22,880 nucleotides of DNA, taken from positions 1 to 22,880 of the forward strand of contig NW_026516556.1 of the NCBI RefSeq assembly GCF_025602895.1. The letters are read 5' to 3'. Every line of letters begins with the position of its first letter. Positions within the stretch are counted from its first letter, which is position 1. Source of the stretch: Polychytrium aggregatum (Eukaryota > Chytridiomycota > Chytridiomycetes > Polychytriales). Below are positions 1-22,109 of this stretch, piece after piece. The position numbers and the translations under genes are program-made. Below the pieces are notes generated by a model. That model did not search any database and was not told the origin of the DNA. It saw only the letters and a program-made list of their open reading frames with translations.

Positions 1-8
1 AACTAAAA

Positions 9-29
9 CCTAACCTAACCTAACCCTGA
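9..29 (+). repeat. Telomere-like CCTAA repeats left of LINE copy A
   Basis: Three CCTAA units (9-23) and one CCCTGA (24-29) directly precede the LINE 5' end. The preceding eight bases are not a clean repeat. CCTAA is the C-rich strand of a TTAGG telomere repeat, a five-base unit best known from arthropods but also possible in other eukaryotes. The same unit and the same CCCTGA junction precede LINE copy B at 6376-6443, which is the main reason to read this short run as part of a telomere-LINE array rather than chance. Confidence 0.75.
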
Positions 30-40
30 CACATCGAGTT

Positions 41-6245: not shown

Positions 6246-6375
6246 GGCAGCACTAGGCTGCAACAGGAGTAAATAGGCTTGCCTGTGTACTCAACGTGCC
6301 GGGGTACCAACCTGTTGGACCTGATGGCTTGTCTTCTTGAATAAAGTTGACTATAGTAACAAAAAAAAAAAAAAA
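6246..6375 (+). terminator. LINE copy A 3' UTR, polyadenylation signal and poly(A) tail
   Basis: The 3' UTR has a small hairpin GCAGC/GCTGC (6247-6261) and a second one, GGT-A-CCAA/TTGG-ACC, at 6303-6321, both retained in copy B. AATAAA lies at 6340-6345, 15 nt before a run of 15 A (6361-6375). The poly(A) runs directly into CCTAA repeats, so the last two A could be telomeric. The hairpins could be reverse transcriptase recognition elements, as in other LINE 3' UTRs; that is inference. Confidence 0.82.
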
Positions 6376-6443
6376 CCTAACCTAACCTAACCTAACCTAA
6401 CCCTGACCCTGACCTAACCTAACCTAACCTAACCTAACCCTGA
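6376..6443 (+). repeat. Interstitial telomere-like array between LINE copies A and B
   Basis: Order of units: five CCTAA (6376-6400), two CCCTGA (6401-6412), five CCTAA (6413-6437), one CCCTGA (6438-6443), then LINE copy B. All units are in the same orientation. It sits exactly between the poly(A) of one LINE and the 5' end of the next. On the G-rich strand the units read TTAGG and TCAGGG. Confidence 0.88.
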
Positions 6444-6454
6444 CACATCGAGTT

Positions 6455-6591
6455 CTCTGCTCCTGCCGCACCTATCCTGCTCCTGCTGCACCTGTCCTGC
6501 TCTTGCTGCACCTGTCCTGCTCTTGCTGCACCTGTCCTGCTCTTGCTGCACCTGTCCTGCTCCTGCTGCACCTGTATTGCTCTTGCTGCAC
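6455..6591 (+). repeat. 20-bp tandem repeats in the 5' UTR of LINE copy B
   Basis: Same seven-unit array as copy A at 41-178, one base shorter because the fifth unit lacks the extra C. No other difference was noticed. The full-length ORF1 ATG follows at 6701. Confidence 0.78.
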
Positions 6592-6700
6592 CGTGTGGCC
6601 TGCACCACACTGCTTTCACCTCTGTGTTTGTTCCAGCTCTGCCCCTCCAGTTCCCCGCCCTCGCTCCCACACTCCCTGTCCCCTTCCCCACTGCTGAGCG

Positions 6701-8388
6701 ATGTCCAAGGACAGACCCCAGCAGTCCCTTCTCCCGGCCTCGACCATCGCTGTCGGCAGCTTGATCTTCAAGCGCAAGGAGCGACCCGTGGCCACCCCTT
6801 CCTCCCCCGCCAAGCGTCGCCTGTCCTTGCCCGACGCAATGACCATGCTCCCCAGGCCGGAGCATGACGAGCGTCTCCCCGAGTCCGAGTTCCCGTCCGT
6901 GTCCGTGCCCGAGTCCAGGCTCCCGGCCCCGCCCGAGTTCAGGTTCCCGGCCGAACCCGACTTTTCGTTCCCGCCCTTGGACCGCGCTGCCGCCCGTGCC
7001 GCCGTCGACATTGATGAACTGGAGGACATCAATGTCGAAGAAGACCTCAGCCCGGACCAAGAGCCTGACGCTGAGCCCTCGTCCTCCTGTGCCGACCAAG
7101 ACCACCCTGCCGAGTCCCTGGCTCCCGTGTCCTCCTCCGCCGCTCCCCACCAAGACCACTGTGCCATGGACATTGTTGTCCAGCCCAGTGCCGACGTCGT
7201 CTCGGTTCCTTGGCGCGACGAGTTCTGGCGCAAGTGGCACGCCTCGTCCGACGTCGATGATCAGAAGGCTGCAACCCAGATCATCGACGTCACCAAGATG
7301 AACAACCAGCTGTGGATGGCCGTGACCGCCAAGCTGCAGTGCACTGTCCTGTGCCGCAAGTGCAAGCTCGCCTCGGCCGATCCCTGGATCGTCGTCAAGC
7401 ACGGCAAGGACGAGCTCCAGCTCAAGTGTCCCCAGGCCCTCGAGGACGGACCCTGCCCCGGCCAGATGTCGGCCTTCCAGTTCTGGGCCCACATGAGCCG
7501 CACCACCAAGGAGTCCCGCAAGCTGTTTGTGGATGCGTTCTCGGACAAGTTCAAGGAGAACTTCCACACCAAGTGCGGCCTCAAGACCATGGACAAGCAG
7601 CGCGCCGTCCCCCGTGGTGCCTCTGAAGGCGCCCCTCGAGCAGCCCCTGCTTCCACTGCTGACCCCGTCGATCCAGCTCGTCGAGCTGTTGATGCTGTTG
7701 GCACTGCGTCCCCTGTCCCCAAGGCCAGGCCCGTCCTTCCGCCCCGACCCGTCGTCAAGGCCAAGACCCCTCCTCCGTCCCAGGCTCCCGTCCCTGCGAT
7801 GAAACCCGAGGAGGCCCTCGCTATCCTCAAGCGAGAGGCTGACCGGGTGCAGTCCATCCTGTTCGAGGCACTCGTGGCCGACAACATGGATGCTGCCACC
7901 AAGGCCATGGTCCAGAAGATCGCCAAGTCCAATGTGGCAATCAGCCGTGCCACGGAGCAGCTCCGCAAGTCTGTTGCCAACAAGACTGCCACCCCCAAGA
8001 CCCAGTCCCCCGGTTCCAAGACCCAGTCCTCCGGCTCCCTCCCTGGCTCTGCCCCTGTTTCCGCCCCGTCTCCCTCGTACAAGGCCGCTCTCTTGAAGAA
8101 CGTTCGGGAGGCCGAGAGCCGTGTCGGCCGCATGTCCGAGGCCAGCCAGCTCGACGAATGGAAGAGGATGCTGACCACCGGCCGAATGCCAGGCTCCTCC
8201 AAGCCGATCCAGCCCAACCAGCACCGCCAGCCAGTCCTTGTCCCCGGGACGGTCGCCAACTCTGAGCTCCGGAACGACAAGTTCAGGGAGGCCGTCACCA
8301 ACATGGACTGGCTGTACGTCGAGGGCATCCGCTGTGGCGACCTCGGCAGTGTCCGCCGCAACCTCAAGCGATGCGGCATCGACACCAG
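6701..8388 (+). pseudogene. LINE copy B ORF1, 5' part, interrupted by LTR insertion
   Basis: Starts at ATG 6701, the best ORF1 start in the window because it keeps the long frame that copy A loses by a 1-nt insertion. Encodes residues 1-562 of the inferred 761-aa ORF1 protein, including the Cys cluster at 218-252, and is cut inside the C-terminal domain (after GIDT). Read into the LTR, the frame adds about ten foreign residues and stops at 8417-8419. Residues encoded here match copy A from IAVGSL onward. The remaining part is at 14469-15066. The insertion should remove the C-terminal half of the conserved domain and uncouple the ATGA overlap from upstream translation. Confidence 0.85.
8384..8388. 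repeat. Left target site duplication (ACCAG) of LTR retrotransposon 1
   Basis: ACCAG immediately precedes the 5' LTR and is repeated at 14464-14468 after the 3' LTR. The uninterrupted copy A has a single ACCAG followed by GGAG at this point. A 5-bp duplication fits Ty3/gypsy integrases. Confidence 0.93.
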
Positions 8389-8807
8389 TGTGATGACCAG
8401 CATCACAACGGACCAATGAGATTGTCCCGCATGCTCTCGCCCTCCGCACCAATCATGAGTCCCCACGTGTTTGTTTGCCCCCATGCATGAGCACGCGCCG
8501 TTGCCACCCGCGTCTACTGGTTTCCTGCCTCCCCCACCGCTCGGCACATGTCCCCGGGCTGTGCCAAGCCTCTCTCGCTTGCACACCAGCCACTCTCGCA
8601 CCCCCTTCTCGCTTCTCTGTGATGCTCCACCCTTCTCGCCCACTTTTGCCCCTCGACCTTCTCCCGGTCTATAAATAGCCCTGCATGTCTGAGCCTATGT
8701 TGAACACCAGTTCGAACAAAACTTGTTCTTTGGTGTTCGGGGCTAAAAGCTAATAAAGCTCATACCAAGCACTTGGTCTTCGTCCTTGCGCTTGTTCACT
8801 CCTTACA
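8389..8807 (+). repeat. 5' LTR of retrotransposon 1
   Basis: 419 bp, TGTGATG...CTTACA. Begins with a GTGATG/CATCAC inverted repeat, then two CCAAT boxes, a CACGTG E-box (8464-8469), a pyrimidine-rich stretch, TATAAATA (8670-8677) and AATAAA (8752-8757). The AATAAA sits in the loop of a short AGCT/AGCT stem. Same length as the 3' LTR and no difference found by eye. Confidence 0.95.
8670..8720 (+). promoter_or_regulatory. LTR 1 core promoter and predicted mRNA 5' end
   Basis: TATAAATA at 8670-8677. AGTTCGAACAAA at 8709-8720, starting 39 nt after the first T of the TATA box, is perfectly complementary to the primer-binding site at 8809-8820. Transcription is therefore predicted to start at or near 8709, because self-priming needs this sequence at the RNA 5' end. 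CACCA (8705-8709) and GAACAA (8714-8719) can also pair with TGGTG (8731-8735) and TTGTTC (8723-8728). Confidence 0.7.
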
Positions 8808-8808
8808 C

Positions 8809-8820
8809 TTTGTTCGAACT
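8809..8820 (+). other. Primer-binding site of retrotransposon 1, predicted self-primed
   Basis: TTTGTTCGAACT lies one base after the 5' LTR. It lacks the TGG that pairs with a tRNA 3' CCA end, but is a perfect 12-nt complement of 8709-8720 in the R region. This matches the self-priming scheme of Tf1-type elements, in which the first 11 nt of the mRNA fold back on the site and are cleaved to give a primer. Caution: the core GTTCGAAC is a palindrome, so part of the complementarity is intrinsic. Confidence 0.72.
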
Positions 8821-8984
8821 CTCTTCTACTGATACCACCTGCTTGGTATCTTCCGCTCCTAGCCCCGCCCCTTTCCTAGTCCTGTCCGAACCTCAAGCAC
8901 ACTTGTGTCTGAGCCCTCTTCGCTCTCCTGTTCTTGAACCTCCTCGCTTTTTTTTTTTTTCCCAGTCCCAGTCCCAGTCCCGCC

Positions 8985-9962
8985 ATGGATCCTGCCCTCG
9001 TGGACCGCCTCCGTGCCTTGGAGGCCGAGCTCGCCGAGCTCCGGACAGCTCGCGATGCTCCTGCCGCTGGGTACAGCGTGCAGATGCCGGACCGTTACGA
9101 CGGTAACCGGCAAGGGTTCCGGGCATTCGTAAATCAGTGCAAACTGTATATACGAATGCAGCCCCACCGGTTCCCTGCTGACCCGATTAAGGTCGGATTC
9201 GTCATTAGTCTGCTCACTGGACCGGCTCTCCAGTGGGCGACTCCGATGCTTGAGATGGGTGATCCCCGACTCAACTCTTTTGGCGATTTCCTAGAACGCT
9301 TTTCCAAAGTGTTTGACGACCCTGATCGGGCCAGGACTGCCGAGTCAGTGATCACCACACTGTCTCAGGGCAACCGCCCGTGCGCAGTCTATGCATCCGA
9401 GTTCCTTCGTATTGCCGCCGATACGACTTGGAACGACGGTGCAAAGATCTCGTTCTTCCGACTTGGCTTGTCGGATGATGTCAGAGACGAACTTTCGCGA
9501 GTTCGCCCTCTGCCACGAGATCTGGAGGAGTACATCGAGCTTTGTAACGAGCTCGATGCACGAATCCGCGAGCGCCGTCAAGAGCGCCGAAGCACGCCTG
9601 CCCGCTACCGGTCTTCCCAGTTCGCCTTTGGTTCCGCCTCCGCTGCCGTTCCCGCCATCGCTCCCGCGCCCGTCCTCGCTCCGCCGCACCCCTCCTACAT
9701 TGTTTCCGAGCCCATGCAAGTGGACTCTGCCGTCTCTGGACCCCTGACCGCCGAGGAGAAACAACGCCGCCGCCGCTTTGGACTCTGCCTGTACTGTGGC
9801 AAGAAGGGCCACTTGGTACGAAACTGCCCCGTCAAGTTTGGATCTACCAGAGCTACCGGACCGCCCCCTGGACCTCCCGGCCCGAGGATCATCCGCACCA
9901 TCGTTTACGAAGATGGAGAAGTGCAAGACTTCAGTTCGGGAAACGACCAGGCCCGGTTCTAA
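8985..9962 (+). CDS. gag: Gag (capsid/nucleocapsid) of retrotransposon 1
   Basis: 325-aa protein starting at ATG 8985 in good context (CGCCATGG). The frame is open further upstream through a T13 run and three CCCAGT repeats (8948-8978) but has no ATG there. A short N-terminal helix rich in Leu/Glu is followed by a Ty3/gypsy capsid domain (about 30-200; YDGNRQGFRAFVNQCKLYI, LLTGPALQWA), a basic Arg-rich linker, and a canonical CX2CX4HX4C zinc knuckle (Cys268, Cys271, His276, Cys281) that binds genomic RNA. It assembles the cytoplasmic virus-like particle in which reverse transcription occurs. The stop at 9960-9962 lies in the loop of the frameshift hairpin. Confidence 0.93.
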   Translation: MDPALVDRLRALEAELAELRTARDAPAAGYSVQMPDRYDGNRQGFRAFVNQCKLYIRMQPHRFPADPIKVGFVISLLTGPALQWATPMLEMGDPRLNSFGDFLERFSKVFDDPDRARTAESVITTLSQGNRPCAVYASEFLRIAADTTWNDGAKISFFRLGLSDDVRDELSRVRPLPRDLEEYIELCNELDARIRERRQERRSTPARYRSSQFAFGSASAAVPAIAPAPVLAPPHPSYIVSEPMQVDSAVSGPLTAEEKQRRRRFGLCLYCGKKGHLVRNCPVKFGSTRATGPPPGPPGPRIIRTIVYEDGEVQDFSSGNDQARF

Positions 9963-9984
9963 GTGAAGGCCTTGAACCGGAGCC
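9938..9984 (+). promoter_or_regulatory. -1 ribosomal frameshift signal, gag-pol of retrotransposon 1
   Basis: GGGAAAC at 9938-9944 is phased as G GGA AAC in the gag frame, the canonical X XXY YYZ form; slipping back one base gives GGG AAA and enters the pol frame. After a 5-nt spacer comes a hairpin: GGC (9950-9952) plus CCGGTTC (9953-9959) pair with GAACCGG (9974-9980) and GCC (9982-9984), one bulged A, with the gag stop TAA in the loop. Arrangement and spacing match known -1 frameshift sites. Not tested experimentally here. Confidence 0.82.
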
Positions 9985-12900
9985 GTGCCCACCGCCTTCC
10001 GAAAGTGAAGACATTGGTAAGGTGCCTTTGGTAAGTACTGGGGAAGCAGTGATGTGCGGACAGCTTCGCCTTGCCTCTGGACCGGCGGACACTCTCAGCT
10101 CTGGCATAGTACCCGTGGCACCTCTGGTGTCACTGGGAACTGCACCTCATCCACAGGTGCAAATACCTGAGCTGTCCTGCCAACCCTCGGCAAAGTTAAC
10201 TGTCTGTGCTAGCCGCAACCCTGGTGCCGAAGCTGGTACCGAACCAAAGTCTTGTGTTTCGTCTGTTCGTCGTTGCTCGTTGGTTGTTCCCGTCGCTGTT
10301 CGTCTTCCTTCTGGTGATTCTCTGTCGTGCGAAGGACTTGTCGATTCTGGTGCCTCTGGCAACTTTATCGACGAGGACTTTGTTGCTCGACACTCTGTCC
10401 CCACCTGCTCCAAGGCTTCGCCCTTGGCAGTGGAAGGCGTGGATGGTAAGCCGCTGTCGTCTGGCCCCATCCTCCGCGAGACTGCTCCACTCGAGGTGAT
10501 TCTCGGGGACGTCTCGCAACGCCTTCGGTTCGATGTGATCAGGTCTCCACATCAACCACTTATCCTTGGCTTTCCTTGGTTGCGCACCGCCGAGCCCAAG
10601 ATTGTCTGGTCTCGCGGTCTTCTTTGTCTCCCTCCTTCTGTTGATTCCGACCCCTCTCCATGCACTACTTCTCTTTCGTCTTGCTCCACTTCCTCCAATG
10701 TCACTCCCCTTCTTGATGATTCCACTCCTTTGATTGATCTAAGCTCCTCTCCTACGCTCCCACCTTCGTCTTCCCCTTCTTGTCTTGTTCCTCCCGAACC
10801 CCTTCGCTCTTCCCAAACCCCTTCTTCTGTTGTCAGTTCTCTTTCCCTCCTTGATGTACCTCCTCCTGTTGTTTGTTCTTCGGACATTGTTCAGAATAAA
10901 GTAACCGTCGAACATTATTCTGACCTTGTCCACGCCCCTCCTCTCAGCTCGGACGCTCCTCTCCGCGTCTGCAGCATTGATTACCGCTCGATGCGCGAGT
11001 CTTTGGATGCATGCAGGCATGGAACGCAACCCCTGACCATCTTTCAGGTCCATGTCCTGCCCACTGACGAGCCGAGCACTGCGACTGTCGAAGTGCCTGC
11101 GGAGTACAAGGACTTCCTGTCTGTTTTCTCTAAACAGGAAGCTGACTCCTTGCCTCCGCATCGCCCTTATGACTGCCCCATTGACTTGGAGCCGGGCAAG
11201 TCGCCAAAGTTCGGGCCTCTGTACTCACTGTCCGAGCCCGAACTTCACGCTCTGCGTGACTATCTCGACGAGAATCTTGCCAAGGGATTCGTTCGTCCTT
11301 CGTCGTCCCCAGCAGGCTCACCAATCCTCTTCGTCAAGAAGAAGGACGGCTCACTTCGTCTTTGCGTTGACTACCGCGCACTGAACGGTATCACGGTAAA
11401 GAACCGTTACCCTTTACCGCTGATCGGCGAGCTGCTGGACCGACTTCGAGGCGCGAAGGTGTTCACTAAGCTGGACCTTCGTGGAGCCTACAATCTGCTG
11501 CGCATCCGCTCCGGGGACGAGTGGAAGACAGCTTTCCGTACTCGATATGGGCACTTCGAGTACTTGGTGATGCCCTTTGGGCTCACCAACGCGCCAGCGA
11601 CGTTCCAGCACTTCATCAACGACGTCCTGCGCACCGAGTTGGACCAGTTCGCAATTGCGTATCTTGACGATATCTTGATCTACAGTGCTGATCCGTCGCA
11701 GCATGTAGAGCACGTCAAGCAGGTCCTCTCGAAGCTCCGAGCTGCAAAGCTGTATTGCAAGCTGGAGAAGTGCGAGTTCTCCAAAACCTCGGTCTCGTTC
11801 CTTGGTTTCATGGTCTCGCCCGAGGGCATCGGTATGGAGCGATCCAAGCTCTCTGCGATCTTGGATTGGCCCATACCGCGCAACATCTCGGATCTTCGAT
11901 CCTTTGTCGGGTTTGCGAACTTCTATCGACGCTTCATCGATGGATACGCAAAGATCGCGGGGCCCATGACTCGGCTCTTCCGGAAGACGCATGGCTTCCA
12001 GTGGTCCCGCGAAGCCGATAAAGCATTCAGATCCTTGAAGGATGCCTTCGTTTCGGAGCCCGTTCTGGTGCATCCGGACCCATCCAAGCCGTTCGTCGTA
12101 GAGTCAGATGCGTCGGACTTTGCGCTTGGATGCGTGCTCTCCCAGCGGGGTGCTGATGATCGCCTTCATCCTTGCTCGTTCCATTCGCGGACACTCTCGA
12201 ATGCTGAACGTAACTACAGCATATACGAGAAAGAGCTGTTGGCGATCAAGGAGGCTTTCGAGGCGTGGCGACACTACCTCGAAGGCGCCCAGCATCCCGT
12301 TGCCGTTCTGACCGATCACAAGAACTTGGAGTACCTGGCAACGGCTCGCATCCTAAACCAGCGTCATGCACGGTGGTCCCAGTTCTTGTCTCGGTTCGAC
12401 ATCCGCATCCAGTACCGTCCTGGTGCGAGGAACGGCAAGGCCGATGCCCTGTCTCGTCGCTCGGACTACATCCCTTCGTCGGCCTCCGTGTCGAGGGATC
12501 CGCCTCTGCTTCTCGATCCTGCCGCGGTGATACGCGTGCTCCGAAGCAGAGACGCCCGCTCTTCGGTTGCAAGTCGCAGTGACCCTGTGGATTTGCTGCA
12601 GCTCATAGCCGAAGAGCAGGCTCGGGATCCCGGTCTAGACAAATACCGTCGTGACCCGAAGTTCGTCTGGAATGGCCAGTACCTCACCTTCCAGAACAGG
12701 ATTGTGGTCCCAGAGTCGTGCCGAGTTCCGGCGCTCAAGTCGTGCCATGACCCAGTCGCTGTGGGTCATCCAGGCATCCGACGGACTCTGGCTCTGGTAT
12801 CGCGACAGTTTTGGTGGCAAACCTATCGGAAAGATGTCAAAGAGTACGTCTCGACGTGCGACACCTGTGCACGCTCGAAAGCTCCGCGACACAAGCCGTT

Positions 12901-14044
12901 TGGGTTCCTGTTGCCACTCCAGACAGCCGATCGACCCTGGGGGACACTGACCATGGACTTTATCACTGATCTGCCAAAGTCCAAGGGTCACACCTGCATC
13001 TTTGTGGTGGTATGCAGCCTCACAAAGATGGCACACTTTATGTCCTGGCGTTCACTGCCGTCGGCGGAGGAGACTGCGTCACTGTTCCTCGACAATGTCT
13101 TTCGTCTCCATGGCCTCCCCGACACAGTGGTTTCAGACCGAGGAAGTCAGTTCACCTCTCGGTTCTGGAAGGCACTCTGCACGCAGCTCGGGATCCAAAC
13201 CAGTCTGTCCACGGCCTTCCATCCCCAGACCGATGGACAGACTGAGAGGGTCAACCAGGTCATCAACCAATACCTGCGCTGTTACACGTCGTATCAGCAA
13301 GATGACTGGGCCGAGCTGCTGCCGTTGGCCGAGTTCTCTTACAATAACCTCGAGAACTCGTCAACACATGCCTCGCCATTCTTGGCAACCTATGGGTTCC
13401 ACCCAAGGTTCGAAGTCCCCGTTGTCGCTGGCGGCCCTGATGTTCCCTCTGCCACGGAGAGGGTTGAACATCTCCAGCGGAACCTGGCACTGTTGAAGGA
13501 GAATCTTGAGAAGGCAAAGTCTGACTACAAGCACTTCTCAGATCTCCGGAGGTCCCAGGCTCCCGACTTGCGTCCGGGCGATCAAGTCTGGGTGCTGACT
13601 CGTAACATCAGCACCACTCGCCCAAGCAAGAAGCTGGATTACCAGAGGATTGGACCATTCACCATCCTCGAGGCCGTCGGGACATTGGCTTTCCGCCTGG
13701 ACTTGCCAAAGGACATAAAGGTGCACCCGGTGTTCCATGTGTCTCTTCTTGAGCCCTACAAGAAGAACTCGCTTCCGGGTCGGGTGCAAGCGCCGCCCCC
13801 TGCGGTGGTCATCGATGGGAACTTGGAGTGGGAGGTCGAAGAGATCTTAGACTCCAAGTTCGTGCGCGGAAAGCTGCACTATCTCATCGATTGGAAAGGC
13901 TACCCGGTCACCGATCGAAGTTGGGAGCCCGCCGACATTGTCTTTGCCCCAACGGTGGCCGCGGAGTACCACCGACGCTACCCAGACAAGCCTGGCCCCA
14001 GGAGAACTCAAGATGGAACACGCCGTAGTTTAAGGAGGAGATAG
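9938..14044 (+). CDS. pol: Pol polyprotein of retrotransposon 1 (PR-RT-RNaseH-IN-chromodomain), -1 frame
   Basis: About 1,368 residues from the frameshift site, made as a Gag-Pol fusion; no ATG is needed. Numbering below starts at 10022. Aspartic protease: VDSGASGNFID, Asp108. Reverse transcriptase: LDLRGAYN, MPFGLTNAPATFQ and YLDD at 547-550. RNase H: ESDAS with Asp696 and YEKELLAI. Integrase: zinc finger His909-X6-His916-X29-Cys946-X2-Cys949; catalytic Asp979, Asp1039, Glu1075 with DX35E spacing; a GPFTILEAVG / LPKDIKVHPVFHVS region typical of chromovirus integrase C-termini. Chromodomain from about 1270 (WEVEEILDSK, YLIDWKGY, SWEP), which in related elements directs integration towards modified histones. 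All catalytic residues are present and no interrupting stop was seen. The stop TAG (14042-14044) abuts the 3' LTR. It copies and integrates the element. Confidence 0.95.
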   Translation, partial: GKRPGPVLSEGLEPEPCPPPSESEDIGKVPLVSTGEAVMCGQLRLASGPADTLSSGIVPVAPLVSLGTAPHPQVQIPELSCQPSAKLTVCASRNPGAEAGTEPKSCVSSVRRCSLVVPVAVRLPSGDSLSCEGLVDSGASGNFIDEDFVARHSVPTCSKASPLAVEGVDGKPLSSGPILRETAPLEVILGDVSQRLRFDVIRSPHQPLILGFPWLRTAEPKIVWSRGLLCLPPSVDSDPSPCTTSLSSCSTSSNVTPLLDDSTPLIDLSSSPTLPPSSSPSCLVPPEPLRSSQTPSSVVSSLSLLDVPPPVVCSSDIVQNKVTVEHYSDLVHAPPLSSDAPLRVCSIDYRSMRESLDACRHGTQPLTIFQVHVLPTDEPSTATVEVPAEYKDFLSVFSKQEADSLPPHRPYDCPIDLEPGKSPKFGPLYSLSEPELHALRDYLDENLAKGFVRPSSSPAGSPILFVKKKDGSLRLCVDYRALNGITVKNRYPLPLIGELLDRLRGAKVFTKLDLRGAYNLLRIRSGDEWKTAFRTRYGHFEYLVMPFGLTNAPATFQHFINDVLRTELDQFAIAYLDDILIYSADPSQHVEHVKQVLSKLRAAKLYCKLEKCEFSKTSVSFLGFMVSPEGIGMERSKLSAILDWPIPRNISDLRSFVGFANFYRRFIDGYAKIAGPMTRLFRKTHGFQWSREADKAFRSLKDAFVSEPVLVHPDPSKPFVVESDASDFALGCVLSQRGADDRLHPCSFHSRTLSNAERNYSIYEKELLAIKEAFEAWRHYLEGAQHPVAVLTDHKNLEYLATARILNQRHARWSQFLSRFDIRIQYRPGARNGKADALSRRSDYIPSSASVSRDPPLLLDPAAVIRVLRSRDARSSVASRSDPVDLLQLIAEEQARDPGLDKYRRDPKFVWNGQYLTFQNRIVVPESCRVPALKSCHDPVAVGHPGIRRTLALVSRQFWWQTYRKDVKEYVSTCDTCARSKAPRHKPFGFLLPLQTADRPWGTLTMDFITDLPKSKGHTCIFVVVCSLTKMAHFMSWRSLPSAEETASLFLDNVFRLHGLPDTVVSDRGSQFTSRFWKALCTQLGIQTSLSTAFHPQTDGQTERVNQVINQYLRCYTSYQQDDWAELLPLAEFSYNNLENSSTHASPFLATYGFHPRFEVPVVAGGPDVPSATERVEHLQRNLALLKENLEKAKSDYKHFSDLRRSQAPDLRPGDQVWVLTRNISTTRPSKKLDYQRIGPFTILEAVGTLAFRLDLPKDIKVHPVFHVSLLEPYKKNSLPGRVQAPPPAVVIDGNLEWEVEEILDSKFVRGKLHYLIDWKGYPVTDRSWEPADIVFAPTVAAEYHRRYPDKPGPRRTQDGTRRSLRRR
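14032..14044 (+). other. Polypurine tract of retrotransposon 1, overlapping the pol stop
   Basis: AAGGAGGAGA at 14032-14041 followed by TAG lies immediately upstream of the 3' LTR. This is the expected place for the RNase H-resistant primer of plus-strand synthesis. The same bases encode the last pol codons and the stop. Confidence 0.72.
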
Positions 14045-14463
14045 TGTGATGACCAGCATCACAACGGACCAATGAGATTGTCCCGCATGCTCTCGCCCTC
14101 CGCACCAATCATGAGTCCCCACGTGTTTGTTTGCCCCCATGCATGAGCACGCGCCGTTGCCACCCGCGTCTACTGGTTTCCTGCCTCCCCCACCGCTCGG
14201 CACATGTCCCCGGGCTGTGCCAAGCCTCTCTCGCTTGCACACCAGCCACTCTCGCACCCCCTTCTCGCTTCTCTGTGATGCTCCACCCTTCTCGCCCACT
14301 TTTGCCCCTCGACCTTCTCCCGGTCTATAAATAGCCCTGCATGTCTGAGCCTATGTTGAACACCAGTTCGAACAAAACTTGTTCTTTGGTGTTCGGGGCT
14401 AAAAGCTAATAAAGCTCATACCAAGCACTTGGTCTTCGTCCTTGCGCTTGTTCACTCCTTACA
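14045..14463 (+). repeat. 3' LTR of retrotransposon 1
   Basis: 419 bp, same sequence as 8389-8807 as far as can be read. Starts TGTGATG directly after the pol stop and ends TTACA before the second ACCAG (14464-14468). Confidence 0.95.
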
Positions 14464-14468
14464 ACCAG
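14464..14468. repeat. Right target site duplication (ACCAG) of LTR retrotransposon 1
   Basis: Second copy of the 5-bp duplication at 8384-8388; LINE ORF1 resumes at 14469 with GGAGTTGG, as in copy A after 1977. Confidence 0.93.
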
Positions 14469-19835: not shown

Positions 19836-20551
19836 TGTAACGTCCACTACTGGGACGTTGGGGCAAGACGGGGAGGGAGGGGGTACAAGACAAGACAGGA
19901 CGGGGCAGAACAGGGCGGTGCTAGGCTACTCTAGCGGACGGGTGAGCTCGGGGAGCACTTACGTTTATTCACGATAAAACCGAACTCCAGACAAACGGGG
20001 GGAACGGGGGCAACCCGCAGGTATACCCTGCGGTGGCCTGCCTGCGGTGCGTGAAAACGCAAAGCGCAGCACAGGTCACGACCCACTGCGCCGCGCAGTA
20101 CGCGCAGTACGCGCAGCACAGCGTCGGAGATACCATCTCCTACACTCCCACACTTAAGAAGGCTTCCTGCGAGGAGCCCTGCGTGTGCTCTTTATTTGGG
20201 GCTCCTCGAGGTGTTTACCGTATTTACTCAGCTCCTCGGGTGCATGGGACAAGTCCTCCAGTGTTTGCCATGTGTTGCCCGAGTGTGGGTAACTGTTAGG
20301 GATAGCTCCTGCTTGTTCTCCACTTTGACTGCACACTTGGCTGTTCTTTTGCCTTTCTGTTTGTTTGTGTGTAGCTTTGCAGTTCCCCTCCAATTTTCCG
20401 CCTTTTGCCTGCCATTTCCGCTCCTTCCGCACTTCCGTTTCCCCGCGCTGCTCCGCTTCCTTTGTCTTCTTCGCACGCGCCGGTTTGTTTGTGCACGCGC
20501 CTTGCTGCGATTGGTTGCAATTCGGCTGCCGGTCATGTGTCCCACCACCGG

Positions 20552-20650
20552 TGACTCATGACCTGCCTGACCGCCCCGATCTCTTGTTCATCTCGCATGC
20601 ATTTGCCCCAACCTTATACTTGACCAATCCGCTTCTTGGACGTTGAGTCA
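20552..20650. promoter_or_regulatory. Paired AP-1/Gcn4-type (bZIP) sites in LTR 2
   Basis: TGACTCA at 20552-20558 and TGAGTCA at 20644-20650 match the bZIP core site, about 190-290 bp upstream of the TATA box. The first lies in a GGTCATG/CATGACC inverted repeat (20531-20563). Binding is inferred; two perfect 7-mers within 100 bp of an LTR U3 are suggestive only. Confidence 0.4.
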
Positions 20651-20837
20651 CATTGCTTCGCCTTTGCACGTTTCTCCTGCCAGGTGCTTCGCTTTTGCTT
20701 GCGCCTCCCTCGCTTTGGTTCTCTGCCTGTCTCGGTGGTCCTTCTCGGCCCTCGTTCGTGCATCGCCCCCTTCGCCCTGCTCGATCGCCCACTTTTCCCT
20801 CCCTTGGCCGCCCTTCGCTGCCAAGTCCGGACTTGTC

Positions 20838-20888
20838 TATAAATAGCCTGACCCCCGCGATGTGTAGTCGAACCTCAGCGTTCAAAAT
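20838..20888 (+). promoter_or_regulatory. LTR 2 core promoter and predicted mRNA 5' end
   Basis: TATAAATA at 20838-20845. AGCGTTCAAAAT at 20877-20888 starts 39 nt after the first T of the TATA box, exactly as in LTR 1, and is perfectly complementary to the primer site 21087-21098. Predicted transcription start at or near 20877. Confidence 0.72.
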
Positions 20889-20930
20889 AGGACTAAATAA
20901 AGTGCCTTCTACTTTATTCTCTGAGTGTTC
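20870..20930 (+). other. R-region hairpin enclosing the polyadenylation signal of LTR 2
   Basis: AATAAAGT (20896-20903) and ACTTTATT (20911-20918) form a perfect 8-bp stem with a 7-nt loop, so the AATAAA is paired. An outer stem GAACCTCAG (20870-20878) pairs with CTGAG-T-GTTC (20921-20930) with one bulge and spans the predicted start site at 20877. Confidence 0.6.
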
Positions 20931-21086
20931 CTCACGTCTCATTTCGAGACTAGTCTTATCTTGAACGGATCTTTGCTTCCCTCGCTCCCTCTCCGAGTCC
21001 ACTTCGGACTTTACCCTTGCCTTCCCTGAGCTCACTTCGAACTCACTTCTTCTTTTGCCGTTGAGTCCCCTTTGGACTCTAACATC

Positions 21087-21098
21087 ATTTTGAACGCT
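21087..21098 (+). other. Primer-binding site of retrotransposon 2, predicted self-primed
   Basis: ATTTTGAACGCT, two bases after the LTR end, is a perfect 12-nt reverse complement of 20877-20888. No TGG-type tRNA primer site is present next to the LTR. Unlike element 1 the match is not driven by a palindrome, which makes it the stronger of the two cases for self-priming. Confidence 0.78.
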
Positions 21099-21155: not shown

Positions 21156-22109
21156 ATGGCTGAGCCTGCTGCACCCCCTGCAGACCTCAACGCGTATCTG
21201 GCGCGCATGGAGGAGCGTATGAACGCCCTCATGACCCAGAACGCTGCTCTCCATCGTCAGATCCAAGATCTGCAAGCTCCCGCCGCCGCTCCCCGCCAGG
21301 TCTACCAGGTCAACAAGCCCAAGGAGTTCCTAGGTTCCCGCGATGAAACGACGGCCTTCCTCGCCCAGTGCCACCTGGTTTTCCTCGCCGATCCTGCCTT
21401 CTTCGCGCCCGAGCGCCAGAAGGTCCTGTACGCCACCTCCTTCCTCCGCGGTGAAGCCTTCAAGTGGTACGAGGCCGCCTTTTATATGGCCAACCGCTTC
21501 CCGGCTTCCTTCGCGGATTTTGAAGTTGCCCTCAAGTCGACCTTCGGTGAGGACACGGCCTCCTCGCAAGATAAGGCCTTGAACGACCTCAAACGCTTGG
21601 TCCAGCTCAAGTCCTGCCAAGCCTTCGCCACCCGCTTCGTCCAGCTCGCCGCCCGCGTCCAGACTGACGAACCCACCAAGATGCACTTCTTCAAGGAGGG
21701 TTTGAAGTCTGAGGTCAAGTTCCACCTCATCGGTCTCCGCCCCGCTCCCGCTTCCCTGCCTGAGTTGATCAAGGCAGCGGTCGAGTACGACGATGCCCTC
21801 CATCGTCTCAAGATCTCCTCCCGTTCCCAACCTCCTCCTCCTTCTTCTCGCTCTGCTCCCCATCACCACCATTCTCCCGCGCATGTTTCTTCTTCCTCCT
21901 CTTCTGCACCCACTCCCATGGACCTTGACTCTGTCTCGGTCCGCCCTGCTAAGCTCTCCGACGTCGAGAAAAAGCGACGTCGTGAGCAGGGTCTCTGCCT
22001 GTACTGCGGGGAAAAGTCTTGTCCCGGCAGTCGCGATGTTCAGCAGTGCCCGGTTCTGGTCAAACGGAACTCGGGAAATGCCCACAGCCGAGCAGCACCT
22101 CGCAAGTAA
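21156..22109 (+). CDS. gag: Gag of retrotransposon 2
   Basis: 317 aa from ATG 21156 (MAEPAAPPADLNAYLARMEERM). The frame is open upstream to the primer site but lacks an ATG, so this start is preferred. N-terminal coiled-coil-like segment (about 10-40, LNAYLARMEERMNALMTQNAAL), a Ty3/gypsy capsid domain (about 50-225; FLGSRDETTAFLAQCHLVF, FLRGEAFKWYE, LKSCQAFATRFVQLA), a Ser/His/Pro-rich linker, then a Cys motif Cys281-X2-Cys284-X4-Cys289-X8-Cys298. This aligns with a zinc knuckle but the usual His is Cys and the last spacing is eight instead of four. It should form the particle shell and bind RNA. The stop (22107-22109) lies in the loop of the frameshift hairpin. Confidence 0.9.
   Translation: MAEPAAPPADLNAYLARMEERMNALMTQNAALHRQIQDLQAPAAAPRQVYQVNKPKEFLGSRDETTAFLAQCHLVFLADPAFFAPERQKVLYATSFLRGEAFKWYEAAFYMANRFPASFADFEVALKSTFGEDTASSQDKALNDLKRLVQLKSCQAFATRFVQLAARVQTDEPTKMHFFKEGLKSEVKFHLIGLRPAPASLPELIKAAVEYDDALHRLKISSRSQPPPPSSRSAPHHHHSPAHVSSSSSSAPTPMDLDSVSVRPAKLSDVEKKRRREQGLCLYCGEKSCPGSRDVQQCPVLVKRNSGNAHSRAAPRK

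Follow-up and report, generated by a model that had tools for sequence, protein, structure and literature searches.

Complementary stretches in two LTR elements of the window

The window, that is, the whole stretch of 22,880 nt analysed here, carries two LTR retrotransposons, S1 (element 1) and S2 (element 2), in each of which 12 nt of the 5' LTR are the exact complement of a site just past that LTR. Does this pairing represent the primer and primer-binding site of a self-priming element, and is it peculiar to these two? The features of S2 were located as follows:

20294-21084, + strand: S2 5' LTR, 791 bp, TGTTAG...CTAACA (from the upstream breakpoint in copies and the 791-bp LTR of L041)
20838-20845, + strand: S2 TATAAATA box, read from the sequence
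20877-20888, + strand: predicted S2 RNA 5' end and candidate self-primer AGCGTTCAAAAT, 39 nt from the TATA box and exactly complementary to 21087-21098
21085-21086, + strand: S2 gap TC, 2 nt, from the LTR CA to the putative primer-binding site (sequence)
21087-21098, + strand: putative S2 primer-binding site ATTTTGAACGCT, exact reverse complement of AGCGTTCAAAAT
21156-22109, + strand: S2 gag reading frame (domain matches to Retrotrans_gag and Ty3_capsid)

The window includes the 5' LTR and gag of S2 and stops short of its 3' LTR. Similarity upstream of the LTR was lost at 20293/20294 in five of seven copies (L002, L003, L004, L005 and L008), the other two (L006 and L007) diverging sooner, within the LTR. 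Both LTRs (L040 and L041) are present in another copy, on contig C157, whose 3' LTR (L041) is 791 bp long and 99.5% identical; this copy also gave an SH3_Tf2-1 match, and no target-site duplication was found at it. Since the LTR bounded by these copies spans 20294-21084, the site begins two bases past its terminal CA. The initial annotation had described a TATAAATA box at 20838, a 12-mer 39 nt from its first T and the complement of this 12-mer two bases after the LTR, and all of these letters proved exact. Genome-wide, the intact S2 primer/site pair was found at 236 places (each matched on both strands, the pattern being its own complement); the site was identical among the 100 matches listed of 234, as was the primer among the 100 listed of 372.

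S1 is a complete element of the Ty3 type:

8384-8388, + strand: S1 target-site duplication ACCAG, second copy at 14464-14468 (flank comparison)
8389-8807, + strand: S1 5' LTR, 419 bp, identical to the 3' LTR
8670-8677, + strand: S1 TATAAATA box (sequence)
8709-8720, + strand: predicted S1 RNA 5' end and candidate self-primer AGTTCGAACAAA, complementary to 8809-8820
8762-8771, + strand: strand of a second S1 duplex within the LTR, ATACCAAGCA, pairing with 8840-8849
8809-8820, + strand: putative S1 primer-binding site TTTGTTCGAACT, 1 nt after the LTR, pairing with AGTTCGAACAAA
8840-8849, + strand: strand of the second S1 duplex past the binding site, TGCTTGGTAT, pairing with 8762-8771
8934-9962, + strand: S1 gag frame (reading frame and domain search)
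10022-14044, + strand: S1 pol frame with RT, RNase H, integrase, SH3_Tf2-1 and chromodomain (Pfam domains)
14045-14463, + strand: S1 3' LTR, identical to the 5' LTR

The S1 domains follow the Ty3 pol order with a chromodomain (RT, RNase H, integrase, SH3_Tf2-1, Chromo), a domain content that likens S1 to Tf1 and Tf2; its protease match falls below the Pfam cut-off. S1 sits inserted within a LINE copy (window 8384-14468), and its LTRs are identical and the repeated LINE stretches 99-100% identical, so these insertions look recent. The same geometry had been proposed for the two elements, and this held for the spacing (39 nt) and the length of the match (12 nt), but not for the gap after the LTR, which is 1 nt in S1 and 2 nt in S2.

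Recurrence of the match in ten families

The genome surveyed comprises 64.7 Mb in 418 contigs. The sample was made up of 20 gag-selected loci, each about 10 kb long (20 of the 150 gag-domain matches listed), together with six 5'-end stretches near integrase matches (L042-L047) and three RT pieces. A perfect match of 9-12 nt between a site 1-2 nt after the LTR CA and a stretch of the LTR was found in ten families (S1-S10), which bears out the proposal that the self-match recurs beyond the first two elements. The candidate primers are:

S1: AGTTCGAACAAA, 12 nt
S2: AGCGTTCAAAAT, 12 nt
S3: AGTTCGAACAA, 11 nt
S4: GAGACGACAA, 10 nt
S5: AGGCAGACAA, 10 nt
S6: AAGAGGAATCA, 11 nt
S7: AAGAGAAGTCA, 11 nt
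S8: AAGACGAGTCT, 11 nt
S9: GTCTTGCCA, 9 nt
S10: GTCTTGCCT, 9 nt

Across the ten families a TATA-like box lies about 37-40 nt from the primer. The distance is 39 nt in S1-S3, 37-39 nt in S6-S8 (in which the boxes overlap and can be read in two ways) and 38 nt in S4 and S5, whose TATA-like boxes are weaker; for S9 and S10 it is 37 and 38 nt with a loose box, and 39 and 40 nt when aligned by eye to TATAAATA. S1-S6 were detected without any TATA condition, and the spacing of S9 and S10, as well as of S7 and S8, is not independent, because the search that found them required a box at 33-45 nt. Equal length and spacing as a fixed law, as the initial annotation would have it, proved too strict, given lengths of 9-12 nt, gaps of 1-2 nt and TATA distances of about 37-40 nt. 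In line with its expectation, the LTR ended in CA 1-2 nt before the site in all ten families found, and the Tf1 precedent makes it plausible that the rule predicts RNA starts as well.

The signature was present in 13 of the 20 gag-selected loci (12 by a fixed rule, plus L021), and a tRNA-type site, TGGTAGCATCGG, in six of the 20, four of which were also among the 13. Neither type of site was seen in the remaining five (L011, L016, L017, L022 and L024), which are decayed or unreadable. The six later stretches yielded S9 in three, S10 in one and the tRNA-type family T1 in one, L045 being unassignable. L017, L022 and L025 are remnants of decayed LTR elements, with an LTR identity of about 80% in L017 and L022 and stops in the RT-like stretches of L017 and L025. 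Among the accompanying searches, that for PF07727 (Copia-type) gave no matches, the controls being without matches too, so that it does not demonstrate an absence; the gag search gave nine homologues, one of them named only 'hypothetical protein'; and a search for relatives in viral_contigs matched three stretches, none of which was confirmed.

Inverted matches are in themselves easily produced by chance: inverted 10-mers were common in shuffled sequence, at 6.15 per shuffle round when the CA was the only condition. Matches of the observed length at the observed place were not. When the 25 nt after the LTR were shuffled (and compared, for S2, against the LTR stretch 20600-21084), a 12-nt match was reached in 0/2000 shuffles for S1 and S2 each, in line with the initial claim that such matches are unlikely by chance. 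A fixed rule (a match of >=9 nt, a CA that precedes the site by 1-2 nt and a TATA-like box 37-40 nt upstream) gave 13 matches, in 12 of the 20 sampled 10-kb loci, versus a mean of 0.2 per round on block-shuffled loci (20 rounds), and a looser rule gave four matches in the six later stretches (S9 three times, S10 once) versus 0.14 on average, and never more than two, in 200 shuffle rounds. The probability that the S2 pairing is a chance inverted match is thus vanishingly small. The primer of S1 and S3 holds an 8-nt palindrome, GTTCGAAC, and for that reason their match is partly self-complementary by itself; this weakens the argument against chance for S1 alone, not for S2.

Comparison with tRNA primers and the RT tree

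Alternatively, the site after the LTR could be an ordinary tRNA primer-binding site, for the 3' end or an internal fragment of a tRNA, with an incidental match in the LTR. Sites of this type do exist in the genome, where three other families, T1, T2 and T3, carry TGGTAGCATCGG directly after the LTR. The T site is complementary at 12/12 positions, CCA included, to the 3' end of a tRNA-Met (L051:1474-1545 in ARAGORN) whose gene in the same genome ends CCGATGCTA (the search pattern matched at 22 places), and which, from the hallmarks of its sequence, we take to be the initiator; a second, different tRNA-Met is also present (L037). At the same place, the longest self-complement in T1, T2 and T3 was 4, 3 and 4 nt, not above the level of shuffles.

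The S sites were compared with a partial tRNA set of 11 genes (9 anticodons) plus the initiator end. The best 3'-end-anchored match of any S site within this set was 8/12, so that none of the S sites was the complement of a tRNA 3' end, CCA included, among those compared. The longest exact match anywhere, 9 nt, was that of S1 and S3, whose sites have TTCGAACTC in common with the T-arm of tRNA-Gln, an internal position; for S2 and S4-S8 it was 7 nt. The S9 site starts with TGG, as a tRNA primer-binding site might, but S10 has AGG in place of the TGG of its sister S9, and its LTR copy is altered to match. Since, in addition, the LTR match recurs at this position in ten families whose sequences differ, a tRNA primer for the S2 site appears very unlikely on the tRNAs compared.

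Self-priming had been suggested as the common mode in this genome. In that form the suggestion was not borne out: the self-match is present in 10 of the 13 families that have a readable site, but the other three have the initiator-tRNA-type site, and exact ACATGGTAGCATCGG sites number 558 (289 + 269) genome-wide, versus the 236 S2 pairs.

An RT tree was built from the 13 families of this genome alone, with one copy each (for S2, a homologous RT piece). S1-S10 were split from T1-T3 with a support of 98/97; the root of the drawing is arbitrary, and S2, T2 and T3 are long branches. RT identity was 87% for S1/S3, 77% for S4/S5, 83-87% among S6-S8 and 86% for S9/S10. Because S1 is nearer to T1 (60%) than to S2 (54%), it is the tree, not the raw identities, that carries the division into S and T. 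The two elements of the window had been called unrelated, a description that does not fit their 54% RT identity and their position on the same side of the supported split.

Paired change of primer and site

Covariation, which had been put forward as a check, was seen between close relatives, in which primer and site changed together; S2 itself was uninformative, without variation in the listed copies. The primers of S6, S7 and S8 vary at 4/11 positions, those of S4 and S5 at 4/10 and those of S9 and S10 at 1/9, the pairing being perfect in every case, and S1 and S3 differ at 0/11. Each of S4 and S5 has a single primer among the 34 places listed. In reverse transcription as generally understood, plus-strand synthesis copies the primer, and the site of a new element would in this way be written from the primer itself. 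Paired change would then not need two independent mutations, and it would record which molecule primed.

Folding of the leader RNA

When the leaders of the ten families were folded as RNA, with no shuffle control, the primer/site duplex had mean pairing probabilities of 0.83-0.99, and 10 of the 12 duplex pairs formed in the minimum-energy fold of S2. The same folds would be expected of a stem-loop that serves the leader in packaging, dimerisation or translation control, and not as a primer; both strands are joined in all ten leaders, and the remainder of the leader folds as well. However, one strand sits at the obligatory primer-binding position, 1-2 nt after the CA, where no alternative candidate site was seen, and the other lies at the expected RNA start, all of which makes such a stem-loop extremely unlikely as the explanation.

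An extra duplex after the site was clear in S1 (10 nt; 0/400 shuffles equally long) and S3 (8 nt), with differing sequences, and borderline in S6 (p = 0.06); in S2 (p = 0.195) and the other six families the flank did no better than shuffles. None of the ten leaders showed a duplex with the upstream flank. No full three-duplex 'pretzel' form was detected in S2, and a single extra duplex, resembling one arm of the Tf1 pretzel, stands out in S1 and S3 only.

Proposed priming mechanism and known systems

In the S2 pairing, the two strands are very probably the self-primer and the primer-binding site belonging to an LTR retrotransposon of the Tf1/sushi type, in the Ty3 chromodomain group, as judged from the sequence. 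Transcription of S2 would begin at 20877, some 39 nt past the TATA box, and the first 12 nt of the RNA would fold back on 21087-21098, just past the LTR. The RNase H of the element would then cut after the duplex, as in Tf1, and minus-strand DNA would be primed by the 5' RNA fragment set free. The 1-2 nt that separate the CA from the site would come to lie beyond the LTR, at the end of the cDNA. It is possible, although doubtful, that the whole clade keeps one geometry (about 39 nt, 9-12 nt and 1-2 nt) while the primer sequence drifts freely, each new site being copied from the primer, and that most families use the central duplex alone, without the Tf1 pretzel.

Self-primed reverse transcription is an already published mechanism, to which the S families probably add members. 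In the available text of the sources, the first 11 nt of Tf1 RNA complement the primer-binding site and the cut falls between nt 11 and 12 (PMC7175516); self-priming was found in Tf1 and inferred for Tf2, Tj1, Tosmo1-3, Tcry1 and Tcn1 (PMC7175516, PMC4600332, PMC10085805). The Tf1 leader is described there as a three-duplex 'pretzel' that includes an additional duplex after the site, a form that Tj1, Tosmo1-3 and Tcry1 are all able to adopt (PMC10085805). As far as these texts allow a comparison, the S families are like Tf1 and Tf2 of Schizosaccharomyces pombe in having a complementary stretch of similar length (9-12 nt versus 11 nt in Tf1) at the same place after the LTR, and differ from them in being known from sequence alone, with no pretzel in S2 and one extra duplex in S1 and S3. 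They share with Tj1 (S. japonicus), Tosmo1-3 and Tcry1 a self-primer deduced from sequence (PMC4600332, PMC10085805), but these elements come from fission yeasts and, according to the same texts, can all form the pretzel. Tcn1-Tcn5 of Cryptococcus neoformans are likewise fungal LTR elements, likened here by description only; in the text available, self-priming was proposed for Tcn1 and a possibly novel priming for Tcn2-5 (PMC7175516), and neither priming mode was found for SM-Tcn1 (PMC2864245).

A predicted RNA 5' end complementary to the site beside the 5' LTR was found in S2 and nine further families, which extends self-primed reverse transcription, as predicted here, to at least ten families in one genome. 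A rule read from sequence, with no need of transcripts, assigns the mode of priming, places the LTR end and predicts where the RNA starts; its TATA-to-primer distance was not found in the available text of the literature searched, outside which the original Tf1 papers lie, and it may exist in print. Both modes occur side by side and are divided along the RT tree, which opens the switch between them to comparative study.

Surroundings of the elements in the window

The contig begins in a run of telomere-like CCTAA repeats (window 1-30), and a second run lies at about 6375-6440. The CCTAA runs precede LINE copies and also occur between the poly(A) at the end of a LINE and the LINE that follows. 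The LINEs (Exo_endo_phos and RT) run head to tail, an arrangement that recalls telomere-associated LINE arrays. The LINE 5' region holds, at window 6421-6600, a tandem repeat of 20-nt units. Judging from its elements, the genome is probably fungal. S2 lies in a match to the 3' portion of a T1 element (window 19836-20293). At another locus (L020, 2323-2780) an S5 element is found no more than 1 bp away from that position in T1, possibly a favoured target.
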